Shown here one piece after another: positions 5,653-23,624 of a DNA stretch of 23,624 bases (positions are counted from its first letter, which is position 1; every line of letters starts with the position of its first letter). The notes under the pieces are model-generated. The model was not told the origin of the DNA, searched no databases, and worked only from the letters and a program-made list of their open reading frames with translations. This DNA is from Bacteroidales bacterium (GTDB lineage: Bacteria > Bacteroidota > Bacteroidia > Bacteroidales > Rikenellaceae), in contig CASPAC010000022.1 in the NCBI GenBank assembly GCA_949419965.1, positions 1 to 23,624 on the forward strand. The letters run 5' to 3'. A program made the translations under genes and the position numbers.

Positions 5653-5892
5653 ATGCTGGACGCAGCGCACGGAAAGAGCCGAAGCGCGGGTCGCAACGCT
5701 CAATGGGCCCATGTAGTCCGTGCCCAGGCGAAAGAAACCCGAACCGTGACTGCCGGCACCGCAAGACGCCGCCGCATAGTAGGCGCCCCACGTGCCGACG
5801 CGCGCCAAGTCTCCCGAAGACTCGTGGCGGTAGCCCGCAGCAGGCGCTGATAAGCAATCGCTCAAAGGAATGCGGCGGAGGGTGCGGAACAA
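5653..5892 (-). repeat. Orphan DGR variable-lectin cassette (truncated copy)
   Basis: A lone copy of the cassette arrayed at 15.8-21.3 kb, on the same strand. Minus-strand reading: PAAGYRHESSGDLARVGTWG, then AYYAAASCGAGSHG, then SVATRASALSVRCVQHL, continuing to a stop about 15 codons later. The upstream element is cut short: part of the CAATCGCT motif remains (5856-5863) but the hairpins and the AGATTC-CGCAATCC block are missing. It has no adjacent RT or host gene. The part before YRHESSG is nearest to cassette 3 (also YRHESSGG/VGTWG). It is a stray retrohoming or recombination product, or a relic of a former target. Confidence 0.75.
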
Positions 5893-14536: not shown

Positions 14537-14567
14537 CGGGGCGGCCGTCTGGCCGCCCCGGCTTTTT
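14537..14567 (+). terminator. Terminator between aminotransferase and RT genes
   Basis: CGGGGCGGCC / GGCCGCCCCG with loop GTCT, then GCTTTTT. It touches the RT stop codon on the other strand, where no T-run follows. Confidence 0.85.
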
Positions 14568-15760
14568 CATCGCATCTCTTTCTTGGCTTCTTCCTTCGTC
14601 TTCTTGAAGGGTACGAACTTGCGATAGTAGGGCGTAAAGTAGCCCTTCTCAAGCAGCCATTGGTTGCGTTCGATCAGTTTGCGCGTGTAGTTCTGGCAGT
14701 TGAGATGCCGCATGTAGCCCAGGTAGGAGTTGACCGTGGCCACCATCATGCTCGCGGGGCGGTGTTCGGCGCTCCGCATCTGGCGGTTGATCCGGCGCTT
14801 GGTCTTGTTCACAAGGTAGCGGCGATAGGGTTTGATGTTGGCTCCCAGAAAATTGACTCCTTTGGTCACTTCCTGTAGATAAATCTTGTCGGGATGCAGC
14901 ATCAGGCCCAGTTCATCTTTCAGGAAATTGCGGATGATGGGCACCAGCTGCATCAGCTTGGCTTTGTCGGTGCCGACAATGTAGAAGTCGTCAACATAGC
15001 GGCCATAATGTTTCATCCGCAGGGTCCGTTTGATAAAGTCGTCGAGTTTCGACAGGTAAACGTTGCTGAAAAGTTGCGACGTCAGGTTGCCGATGGGCAG
15101 GCCGCAGCCGTCGGGCGTGTGGAACAGGCTCTTCGAACGGGGCAGTCCGATCCATTGGCGCTGCGTGCCGCGCACTTCGCAGTTCTCGGTCGGGTCGTTG
15201 AACACGATTTCGCGGGACAGATAGCGCACCAGATCGTAGTCGAGATACTCTTCCCAGGTCTTGCCGTCGAAAGCACGGCGCTTGGCGAAGCGGTCGAGTT
15301 TCTCCATGATGATATTGAACAATATCTGCCGGTTGATGTTCATGAAATAGCCTTGTATGTCAAGTTTCAGCAGGTAGCATTTCCATTGGAAGTTGTTCGA
15401 GCACGAGCGGATGTGGTGTTCCAGGCGCGCAATGCCGAAATGGGTGCCCATGCCCTTGCGGCAGGAGTAGCTGTCGGTGATGAAGGTGCGTTCGAAAAGC
15501 GGGGCTACATAGTTGCACAGCAGGTGGTGCACCACACGGTCGCGGAAATCGGCCGCGAAGATTTCGCGTTTGACCGGTACGTTGGTCATGAAGCATATGC
15601 TGCGGCCCACCTTGTAGCGGCGTTCGTCGATCTCGTGGAAGAGTTCGATCAGATTGGCTTCGAGGTCCATCTCGAAACGCAGTTGGCTGAGGGTGTTCCG
15701 CTTGTTTTCGCGGGCATCGTAGTAGGCCCGGAAAACATCAGTCAAAAGTTTTTCGTTCAT
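14567..15760 (-). CDS. Diversity-generating retroelement reverse transcriptase
   Basis: 397 residues. It copies a template-repeat RNA into cDNA with errors at adenines, and the cDNA replaces the variable repeat of a target gene. RT blocks in order: FAADFRDRVVHHLL (68-81), SYSCRKGMGTHFGIARLEHH (97-116), LLKLDIQGYFMNIN (130-143, first catalytic Asp), GLPIGNLTSQLFSNVYLSKL (220-239), YGRYVDDFYIV (252-262, catalytic YVDD) and LHPDKIY with GVNFLGANIKPYRRY. GNLTSQ in place of the QGxxxSP of retroviral, retron and group II RTs marks the DGR class. There is no maturase or endonuclease domain. It is last in the msl-avd-array-RT unit, starting about 40 nt after cassette 1, and no further sequence lies between it and the convergent aminotransferase. 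Confidence 0.95.
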   Translation of the reverse strand: MNEKLLTDVFRAYYDARENKRNTLSQLRFEMDLEANLIELFHEIDERRYKVGRSICFMTNVPVKREIFAADFRDRVVHHLLCNYVAPLFERTFITDSYSCRKGMGTHFGIARLEHHIRSCSNNFQWKCYLLKLDIQGYFMNINRQILFNIIMEKLDRFAKRRAFDGKTWEEYLDYDLVRYLSREIVFNDPTENCEVRGTQRQWIGLPRSKSLFHTPDGCGLPIGNLTSQLFSNVYLSKLDDFIKRTLRMKHYGRYVDDFYIVGTDKAKLMQLVPIIRNFLKDELGLMLHPDKIYLQEVTKGVNFLGANIKPYRRYLVNKTKRRINRQMRSAEHRPASMMVATVNSYLGYMRHLNCQNYTRKLIERNQWLLEKGYFTPYYRKFVPFKKTKEEAKKEMR

Positions 15761-15800
15761 AGGGTATCGTTAAATAATTAGGTAAAACAGCTCCGCACAG

Positions 15801-16158
15801 ATGCTGGACGCAGCGCACGGAGAAGCCGTTGGCCCGGTTGTCGTTATTCAACGGGTTCATGCGACTTGCGTCGCAGAAGAAACTGCCTGCATGGAGGTTG
15901 CCCGAGGCGTAGGACGACGAGGACCACCAGTGGCCGTTCGCGCCGACGTCAGCCAAGGCTCCCGTCGTATAATGGCGGTAGCCCGTAGCAGGCCCAAGCG
16001 CAATCGCTGGATTGGATGCACCGAAGAGACGCAACGGCTTCGGTGCAGGCTGGAATGGACAACTGGCTTCTTCGCGGCGGTTATCCGGCCGAGCCAGTGG
16101 ATTGCTGAATCTGTGGCCGCTCTGACACGGACCGTAGTCCGCACCACTCGGGGCCGGG
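15801..16158 (-). repeat. DGR cassette 1 (RT-proximal)
   Basis: The lectin part reads GYRHYTTGALADVGANGHWW, loop SYASGNLHAGSFFC, then MNPLNNDNRANGFSVRCVQH. The upstream element carries hairpin P2 with arms 16017-16026 / 16038-16047 (TGCACCGAAG/CTTCGGTGCA) and P3 with arms 16062-16068 / 16092-16098 (ACTGGCT/AGCCAGT). It is the nearest candidate template to the RT, but is not especially adenine-rich. Confidence 0.88.
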
Positions 16159-16227
16159 AGCCGTTTTTGCTCCGAATACTCTATTCGGTTCCAAATATAG
16201 TCAAAAAAGATCATAAAACAGCAGTAG

Positions 16228-16585
16228 ATGCTGGACGCAGCGCACGGAAAGGGCCGAGGCTCGCGTAGCGTTGTTCAGCGGGTTCACCCACGTCGCGTTG
16301 AAGTTCAGGTTGCCCGCACGGCTGGCGTTGGCGCCATCGGCCGCAAAGGGGGACGAAGAGCGGTAGTTGCCCTCCGTGCCGACGGCCGTCAAGGCTCCCG
16401 CTCCCGCACTGCGATAGCCCGCAGCAGGAGCACGTCATGCAATCGCTGGATTGGGTGCACCGCAGGAGCGCTCCGGCCGCTTCGGTGCAGACTGGCATGC
16501 ACAGCTGACGCGGTAGCGCCAGCGGATTGCGGAATCTACTCGGCCTCGCTGACCGGGACCTTGGTCTCCGCCATTCCGGACCGGG
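16228..16585 (-). repeat. DGR cassette 2
   Basis: Lectin part: YRSAGAGALTAVGTEGNYRS, loop PFAADGANASRAGNLNF (three codons longer than most), NPLNNATRASALSVRCVQHL. A TGA in the lectin frame lies just before PAAGYR, so the upstream part is not read as protein. P2 arms 16456-16462 / 16483-16489; P3 arms 16504-16511 / 16516-16523 with one A-C mismatch. Confidence 0.88.
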
Positions 16586-16632
16586 GTGTGCCGTATTACG
16601 ATCGGAAAAGGATAAAAAAACAGCCCTCGTAG

Positions 16633-16992
16633 ATGCTGGACGCAGCGCACGGAAAGGGCCGATGCCCGGTTCGCGTTGTTCAGTGGGTTCACGTTGTCCG
16701 CGTTCAGGTTCAAGTAGGCCGAATTGATACTGCCGGCAGCATAGGACGACGAGGCATGGTAGAGGCCCCACGTGCCGACGTTCGCCAAACCTCCCGACGA
16801 CTCGTGGCGGTAGCCCGCAGCAGGCATCGGAAACAATCGCTGGAGTGAATGCTCCGGAGGAGCAGGCGCAGAGGCCAACTCCGGAGCAGACTGGGTTGAA
16901 CAACTGATGCCATGATCGAACAAGGCCGTCAGTGGATTGTTGAATCTACCGACCGCACTGACAGAAGCCGTAGCCTCCGCCATTCAGGGTCA
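16633..16992 (-). repeat. DGR cassette 3
   Basis: Lectin part: GYRHESSGGLANVGTWGLYH, loop SYAAGSINSAYLNL, NPLNNANRASALSVRCVQHL. P2 is a perfect 10-bp stem, TGCTCCGGAG (16850-16859) with CTCCGGAGCA (16879-16888). The outer pair AACAATC/GATTGTT differs from GCAATC/GATTGC elsewhere but still pairs. Confidence 0.88.
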
Positions 16993-17051
16993 AGGGAGCG
17001 TTTTTTATCGGGTAGTTTCAGGAGCGCGGCGTCGGAAACGATTCCGCGTAG

Positions 17052-17409
17052 ATGCTGGACGCAGCGCACGGAGAAACCGTAGGACCGATTGTTCGCATTC
17101 AGCGGGTCCAAACGGTCCGAATGAAAGTACAGGTAGCCGGCATCGTACGAGTTGCCCGAACCGCCAAAGGACGACGACGACCAGCAGAGTCCCTCGCCAC
17201 CGACACCGCCAACGGCTCCCGTCAGCGTGCGGCGGTAGCCCGCAGCAGGCATTGGCGCAATCGCTGGGTTGAATGCGCCGAGGATATGTTACGTTGCTTC
17301 GGCGCAGGCTGGAGTGCATAGCTGACCGGCCCGTCGCGGATGCCGGCAGCGGATTGCGGAATCTACAACCGCACTGGCAAAAGCCCGTAGCCTCCGCCAC
17401 TCCGGGTCG
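17052..17409 (-). repeat. DGR cassette 4
   Basis: Lectin part: GYRRTLTGAVGGVGGEGLCW, loop SFGGSGNSYDAGYLYF (two codons longer), DPLNANNRSYGFSVRCVQHL. P2 TGCGCCGA (17274-17281) with TCGGCGCA (17299-17306); P3 GCTGACCGGC (17321-17330) with GCCGGCAGC (17342-17350). Confidence 0.88.
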
Positions 17410-17471
17410 GGGGAATCCGTTTCCGAGCGCCGCATTTTCCGGTTGCGGAAACGATTAAAACAGCTTCGCAG

Positions 17472-17822
17472 ATGCTTGGACGCAGCGCACGGAAAGGGCG
17501 TTAGCCCGGTTCGCGTTGTTCAGCGGGTGCAGGTCGCCCGAACCGTAAGCCAAATGGCTCGCGTTGACATTGCCCGCAAGCAGAGGCGACGAAGCGTAGT
17601 AGGCGCCCCACGTGCCGACGCTCACCAAGGCTCCCGACGCGTTGTTGCGGTTGCCCGTAGCACCCGGGACAATCGCTGGATTGGGTGTTCCGGAGGAGTT
17701 CGGCAGCAACTCCAGGACAGACCGGAATGTACAACTCACAGGCCGCACGGCGGTCGGTGAGTGGATTGCGGAATCTGCGGACCTCGCTGGCCGGAGCCTT
17801 GACCCCGGCCATTCCGGGCCGG
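17472..17822 (-). repeat. DGR cassette 5
   Basis: Lectin part: GNRNNASGALVSVGTWGAYY, loop PLLAGNVNASHLAY, HPLNNANRANALSVRCVQ. The 3' junction has an extra A (GTCCAAGCATC), shared only with cassette 7 and the target end. P2 GGAGTT (17695-17700) with AACTCC (17708-17713); P3 ACTCAC (17734-17739) with GTGAGT (17757-17762), a stem unlike the others. Confidence 0.87.
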
Positions 17823-17917
17823 CAAGCTGTTTTTCGGCGTGTTTGAGCGTCTTTTCGCAGTTTGTATGGGATAGTCGATAGAAATTAAATTAAATTAAAT
17901 TAAACAGCTCTCCGTAG

Positions 17918-18272
17918 ATGCTGGACGCAGCGCACGGGAAAACCGTTCGCCCGGTTGTTGTTGTTCAGCGGGTTCACTACGGTGGCATCGAAGCCGAGGT
18001 TGCCCGCGTTGACGCTGCCGGAGGCGTTGGGTGACGAGGACCAGGCGAAGCCGCTCGCGCCGACGCTCGTCAAGGCTCCCGTCTCACGGTTGCGGTTGCC
18101 CGTAGCGAGAAGTGAGCCGCAATCGCTGGTTTGAATGTGCCGAAGGGGTCTGGCAGAGCCGCTCCGGCGCAGACTGGGATGTACAGCTGACCATGTTTTC
18201 GGGGCATCGTCAGCGGATTGCTGAATCTACCCGGCCGCGCTGGCAAAAGCCGTGGCCTCCACCACTCCGGGC
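17918..18272 (-). repeat. DGR cassette 6
   Basis: Lectin part: GNRNRETGALTSVGASGFAW, loop PNASGSVNAGNLGF, NPLNNNNRANGFPVRCVQHL. It has four consecutive AAC codons after NPL, the most template-like run in the array, and shares FPVRCVQ with the target. P2 TGTGCCG (18136-18142) with CGGCGCA (18165-18171); P3 GCTGAC (18186-18191) with GTCAGC (18209-18214). A short TTAAA microrepeat (17886-17903) sits in the gap beside it. Confidence 0.88.
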
Positions 18273-18331
18273 CGTAGAAAAAGCTGTTTTTTAGGGATTC
18301 CCCCGTCGGGCGGGCAGGAACGGCCTTGCAG

Positions 18332-18688
18332 ATGCTTGGACGCAGCGCACGGAAAAGGCGTTGGAACGGTTGTTCCAGCCAAGCGGGTTCACGTTGCTCG
18401 CGTTGAAGTCCAGGTTGGCTGCGTAGATCTCGCCGGCAGACCGCGGCGACGAAGACCAGTAGTAGCCGGCCGCGCCGATGCCCGCCAAGACTCCCGTCTC
18501 ACGGTTGCGGTTGCCCGCAGCACCCGGTTTTCCGGCAATCGCTGGATTGATCGTCCCGAGGAGTTCTTTCCGAGGTCGCCCCGGGACAATCTGGGATGAA
18601 CAGCTGGTCGGCGCCTCACGGCCCGGCCAGCGGATTGCGGAATCTGCGACCGCGCTGACAGAAGCCGTGACCTCCGCCATTCAGGGTC
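18332..18688 (-). repeat. DGR cassette 7
   Basis: Lectin part: GNRNRETGVLAGIGAAGYYW, loop PRSAGEIYAANLDF, NPLGWNNRSNAFSVRCVQ, with the GTCCAAGCATC junction. P2 GTCCCG (18553-18558) with CGGGAC (18582-18587); P3 GCTGG (18603-18607) with CCAGC (18627-18631). Confidence 0.87.
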
Positions 18689-18733
18689 TTGGCCGTCCGA
18701 CCGCTCTCCGAGTCGAACGGCTTCCAGGGGTAG

Positions 18734-19081
18734 ATGCTGGACGCAGCGCACGGAGTAGGCATTCGCACGGTACCAGCCATTCAGCGGGTTGACGTTGCCC
18801 GCAGTGAAGTTCAAGTTGCCTGCGCTGACACTGCCGGAGGCAGCGGTCGACGACGACCGGTAGTTGCCCTCGGTGCCGATGCCGCCCAAAGCACCCGTCT
18901 CACGGTTGCGGTAACCCGCAGCAGGGGTTTCATAACAATCGCTGGATTGAATGTCCCGGAGGAGTTCGGCAGCTCCGGCACAGACTGGGATGCAGAGCTG
19001 GCGTGCGAACCGCCGCCAGCGGATTGCGGAATCTACCCCACCGCTCTGACCGAAGCCGTAGCCTCCGTCACTCCGGGTCCC
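18734..19081 (-). repeat. DGR cassette 8
   Basis: Lectin part: GYRNRETGALGGIGTEGNYR, loop TAASGSVSAGNLNF, NPLNGWYRANAYSVRCVQHL. P2 CCGGAG (18956-18961) with CTCCGG (18973-18978); P3 GCTGGCG (18997-19003) with CGCCAGC (19014-19020). Confidence 0.88.
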
Positions 19082-19140
19082 GGAGAGCCGTTCGTCGGAG
19101 AGTTCTTGCCGCTTCGGACGGGTCGGAAACAGCTTTGCAG

Positions 19141-19497
19141 ATGCTGGACGCAGCGCACGGAAAGACCGTACGCCCGGGACGTGTAGTACAGCGGGCTCAC
19201 GCCGCCCGCGCCGAAGTGCAGGAAGCCCGCGTAGATATTGCCGGACGCATAAGTCGACGAGCACCAGACGCCGCCCTCGGCGCCGACGCCCGTCAAGGCT
19301 CCGCCGTCACGGTGGCGGTAGCCCGCAGCAGCCGAAACGTGGTGTGGCAATCGCTGGATTGATCGTCCCGAGGAGTTCCTTCCGAGGTCGCTCCGGTACG
19401 ATCTGGGATACATAGCTGGCAGTCGTGACACCGCCAGCGGATTGCGGAATCTGCGATCACACTGACCAGAGCCTTGGCCCGGGCCACTCCGGATCCG
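19141..19497 (-). repeat. DGR cassette 9
   Basis: Lectin part: GYRHRDGGALTGVGAEGGVW, loop TYASGNIYAGFLHF, SPLYYTSRAYGLSVRCVQHL. P2 outer arms GATCGT (19361-19366) with ACGATC (19398-19403); P3 GCTGGC (19415-19420) with GCCAGC (19433-19438). Confidence 0.88.
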
Positions 19498-19560
19498 GTC
19501 GGTTCGGTTCTATCTTCGGGTAAATCGCGCCGGTTCCACGGCATGAATCAGCTCGTATAG

Positions 19561-19906
19561 ATGCTGGACGCAGCGCACGGCGAAGCCGTTCGCCCGATTC
19601 GGGTTGCCAAAAGGGTTCACTGTGCTTGCAATGAAGTATACGGAGCTCGCGTTGATGTTGCCGGCGGCGTTCGACGACGAGCCCCAGTACTCGCCGTTCG
19701 TGCCGGCGCCGCCCAAGGCTCCCGTTTCACGGTTGCGGTTGCCCGCAGCCCCGTATTTGTAGCAATCGCTGGTCTGATCGTCCCATAGAGGTGCTATGGG
19801 GTGATCTGGGTTGCATAGCTGACCTCGCCTTCGGGATGCGGTCAGCGGATTGCGGAATCTATCCACCGCTCTGACAGAGGCCTTGACCGCCGTCACTCCG
19901 GGTCGG
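19561..19906 (-). repeat. DGR cassette 10
   Basis: Lectin part: GNRNRETGALGGAGTNGEYW, loop SNAAGNINASSVYF, NPFGNPNRANGFAVRCVQHL. P2 CCCATAG (19782-19788) with CTATGGG (19794-19800), a stem sequence unique in the array; P3 GCTGACC (19818-19824) with GGTCAGC (19840-19846). Confidence 0.88.
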
Positions 19907-19960
19907 AGAGCTGTTTCCCGTGCCGTTCGGCAGGAAATCCAGGTAAGAAAACGGCCGCAG

Positions 19961-20314
19961 ATGCTGGACGCAGCGCACAGGGAAACCGTTGGACCGGGCA
20001 TTGTTGTTCAGCGGGTTCACCCACGTTGCGTTGAAGTTCAGGTTGCCCGCGTCGCGAGGGACCGTGCCGCCGAAGGACGACGAGGACCAGGCGTAGCCGT
20101 TCGCGCCGACGCTCGCCAGGGCTCCCGTGTCGTTGTGGCGGTAGCCCGTAGCTATGTTGTGGCAATCGCTGGTTTGAATGCGCGAGGGATGCTCTGTAGT
20201 CGCCCCGGCGCAAACTGGGATGAAAAACTGACGGATTCCGGGATGGAGGACCGCCAGCGGATTGCGGAATCTATCGACCGCTCTGGCGCAAACCGTGGCC
20301 TGCGCCACTCGGGG
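19961..20314 (-). repeat. DGR cassette 11
   Basis: Lectin part: GYRHNDTGALASVGANGYAW, loop SFGGTVPRDAGNLNF (one codon longer), NPLNNNARSNGFPVRCVQHL. P2 is short (TGCGC 20179-20183 with GCGCA 20208-20212); P3 pairing is weak. Confidence 0.87.
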
Positions 20315-20367
20315 TGACAAGCCGTTTTCGGTATCATACTTTTGGATAAAAAGCAGCTTCCGCATAG

Positions 20368-20723
20368 ATGCTGGACGCAGCGCACGGAAAAACCGTTGGA
20401 GCGGTTGTTCGCATTGAGGGGGTTCACCCACGTCGCGTTGAAGTCCATGTTGCCCGCGTTGATATTGCCGGACGCAAAGGTCGACGAGGACCACACGTAG
20501 CCGTTCGCGCCGACAGCCAGCAAGGCTCCCGTGCCCACACGGTCGCGGTAGCCCGCGGCAGGATTTGATATGCAATCGCTGGATTGGATGTTCCGAGGGA
20601 GCATCGCAACCTCGGTCTAACCTGGGATGAAAAGCTGACGATGCGCCGTTCGGACGCCGACAGCGGATTGCTGAATCTACTCGGCCGCACTGGCAAAAGC
20701 CGTGGCCTCTGCCATTCCGGGTC
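20368..20723 (-). repeat. DGR cassette 12
   Basis: Lectin part: GYRDRVGTGALLAVGANGYV, loop TFASGNINAGNMDF, NPLNANNRSNGFSVRCVQHL. One extra codon lies in the first segment. P2 CCGAGG (20593-20598) with CCTCGG (20610-20615). Confidence 0.88.
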
Positions 20724-20732
20724 GGAGGAGAG

Positions 20733-20938
20733 CTGTTTTTTATCGTTCGAATTCTTGCACCTTTTCTCGCCTCGGCATAGTCCGAACAAGTTCGGCTCTG
20801 CGCTCGGCTTATCGAAAACGTTCAAATTCTTGCACCTTTTCTCGCCTCGGCATAGCTCAAGCAAGCTTGGCTCTGCACTCGGCTTATCGAAAACGTTGAA
20901 AAATGCTCAATGTGTCAAAGAGCCCGGATAAAAAACAG
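20733..20938. repeat. Enlarged inter-cassette gap with inverted ends and tandem 75-bp repeat
   Basis: The gap between cassettes 12 and 13 is about 230 bp rather than 35-100. It is bounded by a perfect 12-bp inverted repeat, CTGTTTTTTATC (20733-20744) and GATAAAAAACAG (20927-20938). Inside are two tandem copies of a 75-bp unit (20751-20825 and 20826-20900), each with ATTCTTGCACC, CTCGCCTCGGCATAG and CTCGGCTTATCGAAAACGTT. The same unit is related to 8507-8564. Confidence 0.8.
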
Positions 20939-20952
20939 TCGTTCCGGGATAG

Positions 20953-21337
20953 ATGCTGGACGCAGCGCACGGGAACAGCGTTCGCACGGTTCGTCCACTC
21001 CAGAGGCGACGCGGTGGCCGCATGAAAGTAAAGGATACCGCCGCAATACACGTGGACTCCGTCTGCTGCAAAGGGCGACGAACACCAATAGTAGCCGTTC
21101 GTGCCGACAGCACCCAAGGCTCCCGTCGCGTTGTGGCGGTAGCCCGAAATTGTGATGAGCAATCGCTGGAATGAATGTCCCGAAGAGACCTTGCGGGCGC
21201 CCCGGTACAATCTGGGATGGACAACTGACAGCGGTCGGAGGGCGGGGGGATGAATCCGTCCCGGGACTCTGCGTCAGCGGATTGCTGAATCTACTTCACC
21301 GCACCGGCACGAACCGTAGCCCGCACCGTTCCGGGTC
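20953..21337 (-). repeat. DGR cassette 13 (avd-proximal)
   Basis: Lectin part: GYRHNATGALGAVGTNGYYW, loop PFAADGVHVYCGGILYF (three codons longer, as in cassette 2), SPLEWTNRANAVPVRCVQHL. The upstream element is about 30 bp longer than in other cassettes, and its P2/P3 pairings are poor. Confidence 0.86.
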
Positions 21338-21353
21338 GAAAACAGCTGTTTTC
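21338..21353. repeat. 16-bp palindrome at the array's avd end
   Basis: GAAAACAGCTGTTTTC is a perfect palindrome. It joins the two half-motifs (AAAACAGCT and AGCTGTTTT) that border many inter-cassette gaps. Confidence 0.7.
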
Positions 21354-21359
21354 TATCGT

Positions 21360-21770
21360 TTATTCGAGTCCTTCGGCCAGAGCGTCGCTTTCGGGTTCGG
21401 CGTCGGGCGTGCGGGACTTGTTTTTGTCTTTCTGGGTATACTTCTGCCATGCGGTCAGCTGGCGGGATATGGTCTCCAGGTTGTCGCAGAGCAGGGCGTA
21501 TTGTTTGGTCGAGAGTTGCTGGGTGTCGTGGAGCAGGCGTACCAGCAGCTTCACGGGCACGAGTTGTTCGCGGGCCTGTTCGATCAGAGGCGCCTTTTCG
21601 GAGGTCAGATTGGCGCGGTAGATGCTGATGCAGAGCCCCAAAATCTCTTTCTTGAGCGATTCGCCCAGCGTGTAGCGGCTTTCGCGTCGCATGTTGACCG
21701 AGAATTTCACCACCTGCAGCAGCAGGTCGTAGGTCGCCTTGAAAACCGGCAGGTTGTCATAAATAGCCAT
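21360..21770 (-). CDS. avd: Avd, accessory variability determinant of the DGR
   Basis: 136 residues, mostly helical, of the four-helix-bundle (S23-like) family. In DGRs, Avd forms a pentamer that binds RT and the template RNA and is needed for cDNA synthesis. Visible: MAIYDNLPVFKATYDLLLQV (family N-terminus), VNMRRESRYTLGESLKKEIL (Arg/Lys-rich second helix, nucleic-acid binding), then AREQLVPVKLLVRLLHDTQQ and YALLCDNLETISRQLTAWQK. The last 25 residues are acidic and disordered. It overlaps msl by 14 nt, so translation is coupled. It precedes the cassette array on the same strand. Confidence 0.9.
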   Translation of the reverse strand: MAIYDNLPVFKATYDLLLQVVKFSVNMRRESRYTLGESLKKEILGLCISIYRANLTSEKAPLIEQAREQLVPVKLLVRLLHDTQQLSTKQYALLCDNLETISRQLTAWQKYTQKDKNKSRTPDAEPESDALAEGLE

Positions 21771-23016
21771 CGATCTCTTTTTTCAAGTCTGCAACAAATA
21801 ATAAACATTCTACGGGCGTCGCCGCTTCCAAGCGGAATTCGCGGATCAGGCGCACTACCCGTTCTTCTTTCGTTTCACGCCGGTTCTCGTCGCAGCTTCC
21901 GGGCCGCGGCCCGGAAAGCGCAGGTCCTTCGTTGCGGAGGGCGGTGCGGCAGGGTTGCGATCGGTCGCCGGCCGGTCGTCCGGGGTCCGGCTGCTGGTAC
22001 GTCCGGCCCGTAGCACCGGTATCGGCCGCTCCGGCCAGTCGGGCGAGAGCCTGCGGCATCGCGGCTGTCAAACCATCGGTCCGCGCCGCGCCGGTCACCA
22101 AGGCGTTCGCTTGCGGCGTTGCCGCCTGCCAATCGCTTGTCCGCACCGCGTCGGCCAGCATTGCCATTTCCGGGACCAGCCCCGTCCGGAGCATCGCCAT
22201 CGCGGCTTCGCGGTCCGCCGGCAGCAGGAGCTTCCCGTTTGCGGTCATTTCCCCGCGCCCCGCGCCGGAGCCCTCGGCTTTACCGAGTGCCTCCCGAGCG
22301 GTATCGGGCCGGATTTTGCGTAGCAAACGCCGCAGCCACGTCGTTTTTTCCGGCTTCTCTTCCGGACTTTCATTGCCCGTTTCCGCGCCGTATCTCCGGC
22401 CGGCAGCGGTCGGTTCGGACCGCTCACCTTCGGATCCGGACAGCTCGCCGCAGGGCACCACAGACCCCGTCGTCTCGCTCCGGTCGGTCTCCGTCCCGGC
22501 GGTTCGGAAGGCTCCTTGTTCCACAGCCCCCCTTCCCCCCGTCGTTTGCACCGGTTGCTTCGGCCCCGTCGTGCCGGCCGCAAGGGCCGGAGTGCCGGGT
22601 AACAGGTCGGCCGGATGCACGAACAGATTGCCTGTTTTCTCGCCTCGTCCCAGCGTCGGGAGATAGGCTTTGCTGCTTCCGCGGGGTCGTCGTTCCTTGA
22701 GGGGAAGCGACGCTTTCCACGTCTCGCAGGCATGCGTGTCGATGTCATCCTCGAGAGTTATCTCTATCCGTCCATCGGAGAGAGGTTCGGGCGCCGCAGG
22801 AAAATACTTGGCGAGCGCCACGGCCGGAAACCCTATCGACGCCATCTCGCGAGCGCAGTACTTGATGCGTTTCTTGGATGGTTTGAAAGTGGAAATCCGG
22901 CTCACGCATGCGAATGCCGACCGGTCGTAAGCCTTGTAAAAAAGACCTTCGGGATAGAGAACGATCTGGTTTGCGTTCCGATCCTCCCGGTGGGCGATTT
23001 CTTCGAAGAAGCGCAT
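21757..23016 (-). CDS. MutS-like (MSL) DGR accessory protein
   Basis: 419 residues from ATG 23016. The first 75 or so resemble MutS domain I (mismatch-binding): QIVLYPEGLFYKAYDRSAFA corresponds to the FxxxGDFYExFxxDA region, and EMASIGFPAVALAKYF to MAGIPYHAVENYL. After about residue 110 there is a long low-complexity Gly/Ala/Pro/Arg linker, then a helical end (ETKEERVVRLIREFRLEAAT, then PVECLLFVADLKKEIDGYL). There is no MutS ATPase. MSL genes are known DGR partners. The role is not established; binding of mismatched target/cDNA duplexes is an inference. The frame is open further upstream to a TTG at 23259, but that part is low complexity and overlaps the CAAGATA repeats, so ATG 23016 is preferred. 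Confidence 0.75.
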   Translation of the reverse strand: MRFFEEIAHREDRNANQIVLYPEGLFYKAYDRSAFACVSRISTFKPSKKRIKYCAREMASIGFPAVALAKYFPAAPEPLSDGRIEITLEDDIDTHACETWKASLPLKERRPRGSSKAYLPTLGRGEKTGNLFVHPADLLPGTPALAAGTTGPKQPVQTTGGRGAVEQGAFRTAGTETDRSETTGSVVPCGELSGSEGERSEPTAAGRRYGAETGNESPEEKPEKTTWLRRLLRKIRPDTAREALGKAEGSGAGRGEMTANGKLLLPADREAAMAMLRTGLVPEMAMLADAVRTSDWQAATPQANALVTGAARTDGLTAAMPQALARLAGAADTGATGRTYQQPDPGRPAGDRSQPCRTALRNEGPALSGPRPGSCDENRRETKEERVVRLIREFRLEAATPVECLLFVADLKKEIDGYL

Positions 23017-23256
23017 GTAACTCTCGTTTGCCGGGAAATCATCGGGCGTGGGGTCGTCGGTTTCGGATGTGGTCGTCGTATCGGGTTCCGAGGGATTTCC
23101 TGGCGGCAGGCACCGTAAGGAAGACAGGCGGCGAAGCGAAGCCGGGCGGTCGATGATCGGTCGAGCGGACCGGGTGCTTCGGAGTGTCTCCGTCTTCGGA
23201 GCGACAGGCGACTTGCGCGATAATTCCCTTGGAAAACCGGGAGAGTCGTCAGCCAA

Positions 23257-23337
23257 CAAGATAGCGGCAAGATAATTCTCGTCGCTCGCAAGATAATTAT
23301 GATTTTTATCTTGCGTTATCTTGTCGTTTGCAAGATA
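23257..23337. repeat. CAAGATA/TATCTTG iterated heptamer cluster
   Basis: Six copies in 81 bp: CAAGATA at 23257, 23268, 23289 and 23331, and TATCTTG at 23307 and 23317. It lies in the AT-rich region between the target-gene terminator and msl, where an msl-avd-array-RT promoter is expected. It may be an operator or protein-binding array. Confidence 0.7.
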
Positions 23338-23473
23338 GCGATCGGAAGATTACGAGAAAGAACGTCCAAAAAGTCCGAAAACTCCGCAGTTCCGGTGGTT
23401 TCCAATAGCAAAAATAGTCTTTTTCGGGGAACTTTCAAAAAAATGACCCCAAAAATCGAAAAATTTTTCGACC

Positions 23474-23492
23474 GCCTTAAAGGCGGTATTCA
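23474..23492. repeat. Small inverted repeat downstream of target VR
   Basis: ACCGCC-TTAAA-GGCGGT hairpin, next to an AAAAATTTTT palindrome (about 23458-23467). Confidence 0.55.
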
Positions 23493-23494
23493 AA

Positions 23495-23523
23495 AAGGGG
23501 GCGCCTGAAAGCGCCCCCTTGAT
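23495..23523 (-). terminator. Terminator of the DGR target gene
   Basis: On the minus strand, AAGGGGGCGC pairs with GCGCCCCCTT around a short loop, followed by TTTTTG. It lies about 40 nt beyond the target stop codon. In phage BPP-1 a hairpin just after the VR is also required for target recognition, so this stem may have two roles (inference). Confidence 0.82.
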
Positions 23524-23563
23524 AAAACATCATGCGTTCGTCTCGCTTACGCTCGCTCACTGA

Positions 23564-23624
23564 TTATTCTTGGACGCAGCGCACGGGAAAACCGGCGGAA
23601 CGGTACCACGATTCGAGTGGGTTA
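23564..23624 (-). CDS. DGR target protein, C-terminal end of variable lectin domain (runs off window)
   Basis: Only the last 19 codons are in the window: NPLESWYRSAGFPVRCVQE followed by TAA (23564-23566). This is the C-terminal strand of a DGR-type C-type-lectin fold, and it aligns with the ends of all 13 cassettes. The residues at the variable positions (ESWY, SA) differ from every cassette. Unlike the cassettes (RCVQHL and no immediate stop) it ends in a proper stop codon and is followed by a terminator, as a real expressed gene would be. The N-terminal part, any signal peptide and the full VR lie beyond the window. Confidence 0.82.
   Translation of the reverse strand, partial: NPLESWYRSAGFPVRCVQE

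Follow-up and report, generated by a model that had tools for sequence, protein, structure and literature searches.

A diversity-generating retroelement with a bank of template cassettes that probably serves one predicted adhesin gene

Diversity-generating retroelements (DGRs), such as the Avd-type element of Bordetella phage BPP-1, are in most descriptions built around a single template that supplies one target gene or a few. What, then, is the function of a locus in which the place of a single template is taken by 13 similar cassettes? This question is raised by contig CASPAC010000022.1 of an Alistipes-type bacterium of the Rikenellaceae (order Bacteroidales; assembly GCA_949419965.1), whose 23,624 nucleotides are called the window here, and in which the cassettes lie between an avd gene and a reverse transcriptase (RT) gene. 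The initial annotation read them as a bank of alternative templates that would permit exchange of whole blocks as well as mutation of adenines, and this reading is borne out by four related genomes (apart from a 5′ patch in one) and by four database alleles, for which two of the three cassettes involved are arrayed. On the sequence evidence, we consider it very probable that the locus is a DGR with a template bank, wherein the variable end of one predicted adhesin gene is rewritten by one RT that can copy any of numerous structured template RNAs. Judged in the same way, related strains carry different versions of the end of this gene.

Targets differ from single cassettes almost only at adenines

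The prediction examined is that the variable repeat (VR) of a target equals one cassette except at the adenines of that cassette. Genome G001, the closest available relative, shares 89% of the window's sampled words, and its target differs from the dispersed cassette C7:97306 at six positions over 187 bp, all six of which are adenines in the cassette (34 adenines in 187; P 2.5e-5). The next-best cassette shows 53 mismatches, 35 of them at other bases; in one row of this comparison the same cassette reappears as part of the flank of a neighbour. Three other Alistipes-type genomes were compared with their best cassette and with a subset of their remaining ones (8 further loci in G013, and 4 each in G142 and G021). 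In G142 (L033, by coordinates), all 22 differences between the target and dispersed cassette C25:16143 fall on adenines (P 9.5e-19), and the best of the further loci has 22 non-adenine differences. The corresponding count for G021 (L046) and its dispersed cassette C2:86782 is 16 of 17 (P 1.1e-10), with nine ambiguous bases set aside and 14 non-adenine differences for the best of the further loci. Those ambiguous bases were rejected as evidence of adenine variation, since only 4 of the 9 lie on adenines. Finally, the target of G013 (L032, Alistipes muris) differs from dispersed cassette C5:81332 at adenines in 17 of 22 cases and, in the 3′ 143 bp, in 12 of 12; the best of the further loci there has 17 non-adenine differences. 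A partial VR in L036 (G144, by coordinates) agrees with an array cassette over 57 bp except at two positions, both adenines.

Adenine-specific differences between template and VR, a feature of DGRs, are thus found here. An initial scan of 14 loci for template and variable repeats found no template-like window in seven and one to three in the other seven, and in the seven loci without one the template may be situated elsewhere in the genome, as it is for L032.

Different strains and alleles match different cassettes. The end of the window's target is identical to the dispersed G001 cassette C7:98700 over 54 of 54 bases, of which 16 belong to a constant 3′ motif, and the next-best G001 cassette has 10 mismatches; the window and G001 targets are therefore explained by different templates. 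Among 57 database target proteins (90% cluster representatives, mostly of unnamed species, left from 101 after 44 without RCV near the C-terminus or shorter than 500 aa were dropped), four (P0001, P0003, P0004 and P0005) have none of 52 VR residues unexplained by one G001 cassette plus adenine changes. The cassettes are C1_62234 (twice), C1_58087 and C3_116562, the first two of which are arrayed. Cassette 2 of the window likewise leaves 0 of 52 residues of P0001 and of P0005 unexplained, and the variable end of P0003 is fully explained both by C1_58087 and by its window copy, cassette 11. P0002 has 4 unexplained residues and the remaining 52 homologues have at least 8. A search for further alleles with the C-terminal 138 aa of the target gave just 2 proteins, and its result was not used. 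The target bodies of P0003 to P0006 are only about 64% identical to that of G001. G001 cassettes nevertheless account completely for the VRs of P0003, P0004 and P0005, which suggests a single bank serving targets with different bodies.

The templates themselves hardly change between strains. Window and G001 copies differ at 0-5 positions per 203 bp in 14 of 14 cassettes, and their 5′ parts at 0-3 positions, except for those at 17477 (11) and 19145 (50, a recombinant). The initial annotation had reasoned that unchanged cassettes matched by no target variant would speak against a bank; the templates are indeed nearly unchanged, yet target variants match them.

A bank of structured template cassettes

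The features of the window that belong to the element are as follows, all on the minus strand; each cassette ends, at its lower coordinate, in a template with a lectin-like end, and the RT-7-like RNA domain forms its 5′ part.

14567-15760, DGR reverse transcriptase, 397 aa (Pfam RVT_1, 60.4 bits; GNLTSQ and YVDD in the translation)
15801-16153, template cassette 13 (template and lectin end 15801-15992; RT-7-like domain 15993-16153)
16228-16580, template cassette 12 (RT-7-like 16432-16580)
16633-16989, template cassette 11 (RT-7-like 16826-16989; G001 copy C1_58087)
17052-17406, template cassette 10 (RT-7-like 17250-17406)
17472-17818, template cassette 9 (RT-7-like 17662-17818)
17918-18271, template cassette 8 (RT-7-like 18112-18271)
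18332-18686, template cassette 7 (RT-7-like 18528-18686)
18734-19077, template cassette 6 (RT-7-like 18928-19077)
19141-19493, template cassette 5 (RT-7-like 19340-19493; one extra cassette here in G001)
19561-19902, template cassette 4 (RT-7-like 19755-19902)
19961-20314, template cassette 3 (RT-7-like 20155-20314)
20368-20721, template cassette 2 (RT-7-like 20565-20721)
20953-21335, template cassette 1 (RT-7-like 21152-21335)
21360-21770, avd accessory gene, 136 aa (DivGenRetAVD and bAvd matches, both under cut-off)
21757-23259, open reading frame (ORF) lying between the target gene and avd, with a weak MutS_I match and an uncertain true start
23564-23624, 3′ end of the target gene (last 61 bases, VR and stop; the end of the window cuts the gene)
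5657-5860, template part of a solo dispersed cassette (5′ limit approximate; 203 bases identical to G001 C1:36437)

The 13 cassettes between avd and RT that had been described, in one orientation and each ending in a lectin segment, are all present at the positions given for them: the 3′ motif is found in every one, cassette-to-cassette spacing is 400-585 bp, and a common 5′ block and a common lectin-like end occur in 13 of 13. DGR-type RTs carry [I/L]GNLTSQ where other RTs have QGxxxSP, and the RT encoded here has this motif together with its RVT_1 match. A comparison of the RT with viral contigs found no relative. Of the flanking genes called standard for a DGR, the RT is firm and avd also stands by homology, although its matches fall short of the curated cut-offs (DivGenRetAVD, its sole NCBIfam match, 54.4 bits against 80; bAvd, 38.8 bits against 40); the MutS-like call is weak (MutS_I, 13.6 bits against 20.6). 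We also considered and rejected the array as a set of protein-coding genes, because the variable-end frame is short or broken at the cassettes and target coding sequence lies upstream at the target site only. Long open frames of up to 506 codons cross some cassettes in this G+C-rich DNA, and none resembles the body of the target. A 75-bp tandem repeat occupies 20744-20901, between cassettes 1 and 2, whose spacing is 585 bp in the window and 660 bp in G001, so that G001 likely has one more repeat unit. Outside the DGR, about two copies of a 70-bp tandem repeat lie at 2024-2174.

The array is real, but it is the smaller part of the bank. Besides the solo cassette near 5657 of the window, G001 carries 88 cassettes, 14 arrayed and 74 dispersed over ten contigs, so the notion that the bank consists of the array alone was rejected. 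That genome contains 88 exact copies of the 16-base 3′ motif and one copy with a single mismatch, and one of these 89 sites is the target; five two-mismatch sites were excluded before this count. With up to 2 mismatches allowed, the forward pattern gives 94 matches and a reversed control pattern 2. A CAGCGATTGC-like block (two substitutions allowed) stands directly 5′ of the template in all 88 cassettes. By tblastn, target coding sequence lies upstream at only 1 of the 89 sites, the target itself, and so the idea that many target genes share this 3′ motif was set aside. One of the dispersed cassettes, C1:20195, follows a gene that we interpret as a class II aldolase, and G141 has the motif at the corresponding position (C29:30671), in an aligned stretch that is 84% identical and whose template part shows 27 mismatches in 113 aligned bases. 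The rule of one template per element, usual in DGRs without being essential to them, is broken by 13 cassettes here and by 88 in G001.

The cassettes look like templates rather than bare donors because they contain a structured RNA domain. Rfam RT-7 (RF03028), a family whose original paper is reportedly that of Weinberg in 2017, matches 13 of 13 array cassettes over the full model (E 3e-13 to 9e-19), which indicates that the array is not a chance repeat. The scores of 63.8-84.2 bits all lie under the gathering score of 116.8 and so do not establish membership of the family; in a related bank genome, G144, five matches exceed that cut-off. For 38 of the 56 cassettes extracted from five records and G001 (length up to 180), RNAalifold yields a structure of 44 pairs, in which 93% of the pair cells are standard, against at most 85% in 500 shuffles, with 76 further pair types. 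In addition, the stretch before the domain and that after the template can form a closing stem, with 22.6 pairs within a cassette against 17.6 across cassettes (61 cassettes; none of 10000 permutations reached this).

The target of the bank is predicted to be a single fimbrillin-type surface adhesin. In G001 it is a 751-residue predicted lipoprotein (signal by eye) with matches to FimA (35.1 bits) and DUF4906 (54.6 bits), and with a weak FISUMP match at its C-terminus (20.6 bits against a cut-off of 41.65). The N-terminal fold modelled for the homologue P0001 resembles P. gingivalis PG49 (Foldseek E-value 1.5e-12), a Parabacteroides fimbrial assembly protein (3.2e-9) and Mfa4 (5.3e-9). A lectin fold for the C-terminus was not upheld, since the predicted local distance difference test (pLDDT) score is below 50 there and only the N-terminal fimbrillin-like fold is supported. 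A role in adhesion or binding would fit this prediction. The G+C-rich 3′ end common to a DGR template and its target is known as the initiation of mutagenic homology (IMH). Such a G+C-rich, A-poor 3′ end is common to the cassettes and the target here: they share CCGTGCGCTGCGTCC and then diverge, into GCATCT in most cassettes and into the last codons and stop in the target.

How the bank might work, and what else might explain it

We propose that each cassette would be transcribed as an RNA consisting of the RT-7-like 5′ domain, the template and the closing stem. RT and Avd would take one such RNA, from arrayed or dispersed loci alike, and reverse-transcribe it with errors at adenines, and the cDNA would replace the end of the target by homology at the common G+C-rich 3′ end (CCGTGCGCTGCGTCCA). 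Repeated cycles that draw on other templates would exchange the binding surface as a whole, and cycles left incomplete would give rise to mosaics. Because the cassettes continue into GCATCT or near it, and the target into its last codons and stop, this difference likely keeps the cassettes mostly donors and the target the acceptor.

The bank itself probably changes by recombination. As the initial annotation had suggested, the array was compared between strains, and that of G001 contains one cassette, 61019, which the window lacks, through gain or loss; by inspection, window cassette 19141 joins a 61019-like 5′ part to a 60598-like template, so that recombination likely removed or added the unit. 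The G001 cassettes C1_60598 and C1_61019 differ at 20 positions in an ungapped comparison, 15 of which are adenines of 61019. This pattern may reflect write-back of mutated cDNA into the bank, or a duplicated VR. Two further pairs, with 2 and 3 differences, have an adenine on one side in every case, and other close pairs lack adenine bias (C2_503555/C9_667, 2 of 6 with A on either side; C4_167198/C9_8854, 4 of 13; C1_20195/C2_67217, 6 of 17). A bolder version of the mechanism, which we regard as speculative and rather doubtful, is that dozens of template RNAs compete for one RT, that each round swaps and mutates the binding face, and that occasional write-back makes the bank a heritable archive of past surfaces.

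Several observations weigh against the proposed template bank or limit it. There is one non-adenine difference in the VR of G021 and there are five in that of G013, all in a 5′ patch; the sequence of this patch is partly visible in array cassette L032_7325, as expected of a mosaic. Wherever a full VR is available, in four genomes, the matching cassette is dispersed and not arrayed; evidence that arrayed cassettes are used comes from three of the four database proteins, from the partial VR of L036 and from a more remote genome, G173, described below. The template of the window's target was identified in G001 and not in the window's own assembly. Two more targets are uninformative: the VR of G016 (L034) is a run of N, and that of G141 (L031) is fused to an array copy, probably by misassembly. 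Since the VR matches a cassette, it is as expected that L031 fuses, L034 turns to N and the window ends at this point, and short-read surveys may miss such targets where assembly breaks. At the stringency used, 24 of the 88 G001 cassettes have no recognisable 5′ RNA block within 1000 nt, and the RT-7-like loops of many dispersed G001 cassettes (L054, L068 and L108, for example) contain other sequences that recur between cassettes; together, these features suggest that some cassettes may be dead. The RNAalifold structure was derived from the same alignment on which it was scored. Lastly, a promoter-like match to TAnnTTTG, the Bacteroidota-type -7 element, with one mismatch allowed, is positioned as expected in 11 of 49 dispersed cassettes, including four exact matches, and none of the 14 arrayed cassettes has one in that position.

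The strongest alternative is gene conversion from silent cassettes, by DNA recombination as in pilin or vls switching, with an RT that is incidental or separate. One target, many non-coding homologous cassettes and block exchange would all be expected under such a system, and the mosaic VR of G013 and the loss or gain of an array cassette, apparently by recombination, fit it too. However, exchange of this kind should be free of base bias, and what we see are differences almost exclusively at cassette adenines (6/6, 22/22, 16/17 and 17/22), which DNA conversion does not produce. The cassettes have also kept a covarying RNA structure, and RT and avd have been kept alongside the bank. As a result, we judge this explanation very unlikely.

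Might the cassettes instead be relics, either products of ectopic retrohoming or copies that have decayed, so that each genome would have a single template now in use? The 24 cassettes without a full 5′ block and the other repeats in many dispersed loops could be taken as signs of such decay. Yet four database alleles are accounted for by three G001 cassettes, and the targets of G001 and the window by two others; the templates are also nearly invariant between strains, and we therefore hold relics to be extremely unlikely. A DGR in which every cassette templates its own target gene is barely credible: multi-target DGRs are known (PMC6642488, in excerpt), but target coding sequence is upstream at a single one of the G001 motif sites (other 3′ motifs were not searched), and the cassette that accounts for the one target locus is not the same in the window as in G001.

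Relatives, known systems and meaning

Template banks are not confined to the window and G001, as emerged from a search of related genomes, a step that the initial annotation had recommended. At E<=1e-60 the RT is present in 25 of the 180 genomes of the genus, and a close group with at least 81% identity comprises nine of these. Counts of the CYGTGCGCTGCGTCCA motif, targets included and some assemblies being incomplete, are 87 in G141, 49 in G016, 36 in G140, 24 in G013, 19 in G142, 13 in G021, 12 in G144 and 9 in G165; the six remoter genomes with the RT yield a single site, in G015, and none in the other five. RT-7 occurs in 17 of the 180 genomes and in 0 of 14 controls, with 8 to at least 13 copies in each of the nine bank genomes. 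Single RT-7 copies adjoin the RT in the relatives G005, G130 and G168. In G130 and G005 the one RT-7 copy by the RT accompanies one conventional template, and 16 of 16 template-VR differences are at adenines in each.

A small tandem bank also exists in a remote lineage, since the RT of G173 is only about 52% identical. Its second DGR (L168, contig 21) has five RT-7 cassettes in tandem, of which cassette 3 differs from the 774-residue target at adenines only (9/9 over 156 bp) and the other four show 7-18 non-adenine differences. On that contig, neither of the two cassettes of the first DGR gives a clean match to its target (17 adenine and 11 non-adenine differences; 18 and 32), and a 70-bp window for one of them does fit (13 and 0). 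Similarly, a long alignment in G018 is not clean (19 and 23) and a 70-bp window fits (8 and 1). The second cassette of G015 has 7 of 8 differences at adenines over 88 bp, and G168 and G020 showed no clearly adenine-biased pair of template and VR.

Conventional Avd-type DGRs such as those of G130 and G005 resemble the bank system in their RT, RT-adjacent template, adenine-specific changes and (in G130) C-terminal variable end. They have one template, whereas here 13-14 arrayed and up to 74 dispersed cassettes feed one target. More than one template per element has been reported: in the excerpts of PMC6642488, 216 of 271 DGRs with multiple VRs had a single template, which implies more than one in some others; two are predicted in Stenotrophomonas SKA14, and six in Pseudomonas costantinii are called atypical, with few adenine changes. 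Those excerpts describe neither a genome-wide bank nor template exchange at one target. In T. denticola, according to the part of PMC4891356 at hand, template types differ between strains and several types occur within human samples. The silent-cassette antigenic variation systems pilE/pilS and vlsE likewise combine numerous silent donors with a single expressed surface gene and show block exchange and mosaics; the adenine-specific differences, the RT and the structured template RNAs set the bank system apart. The initial annotation knew of no described DGR with such an arrangement, and in keeping with this a full-text literature search, whose scope excluded preprints and most subscription journals, found no published description of a template bank; none was met in the excerpted texts of PMC8144416, PMC8867640, PMC10907252 and PMC3521204 or in a term scan of PMC7517822.

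The bank unites block switching from donors with targeted hypermutation in one system that would be driven by RNA. It also suggests a function for RT-7 RNAs, which may be the 5′ domain of DGR template RNAs. Genomes with one template, five in tandem and up to 88 form a natural series for how banks may grow, and the choice of template by a DGR becomes directly testable. If the proposed template bank is correct, DGR surveys that are confined to the neighbourhood of the RT miss templates and can read real VRs as lacking one.

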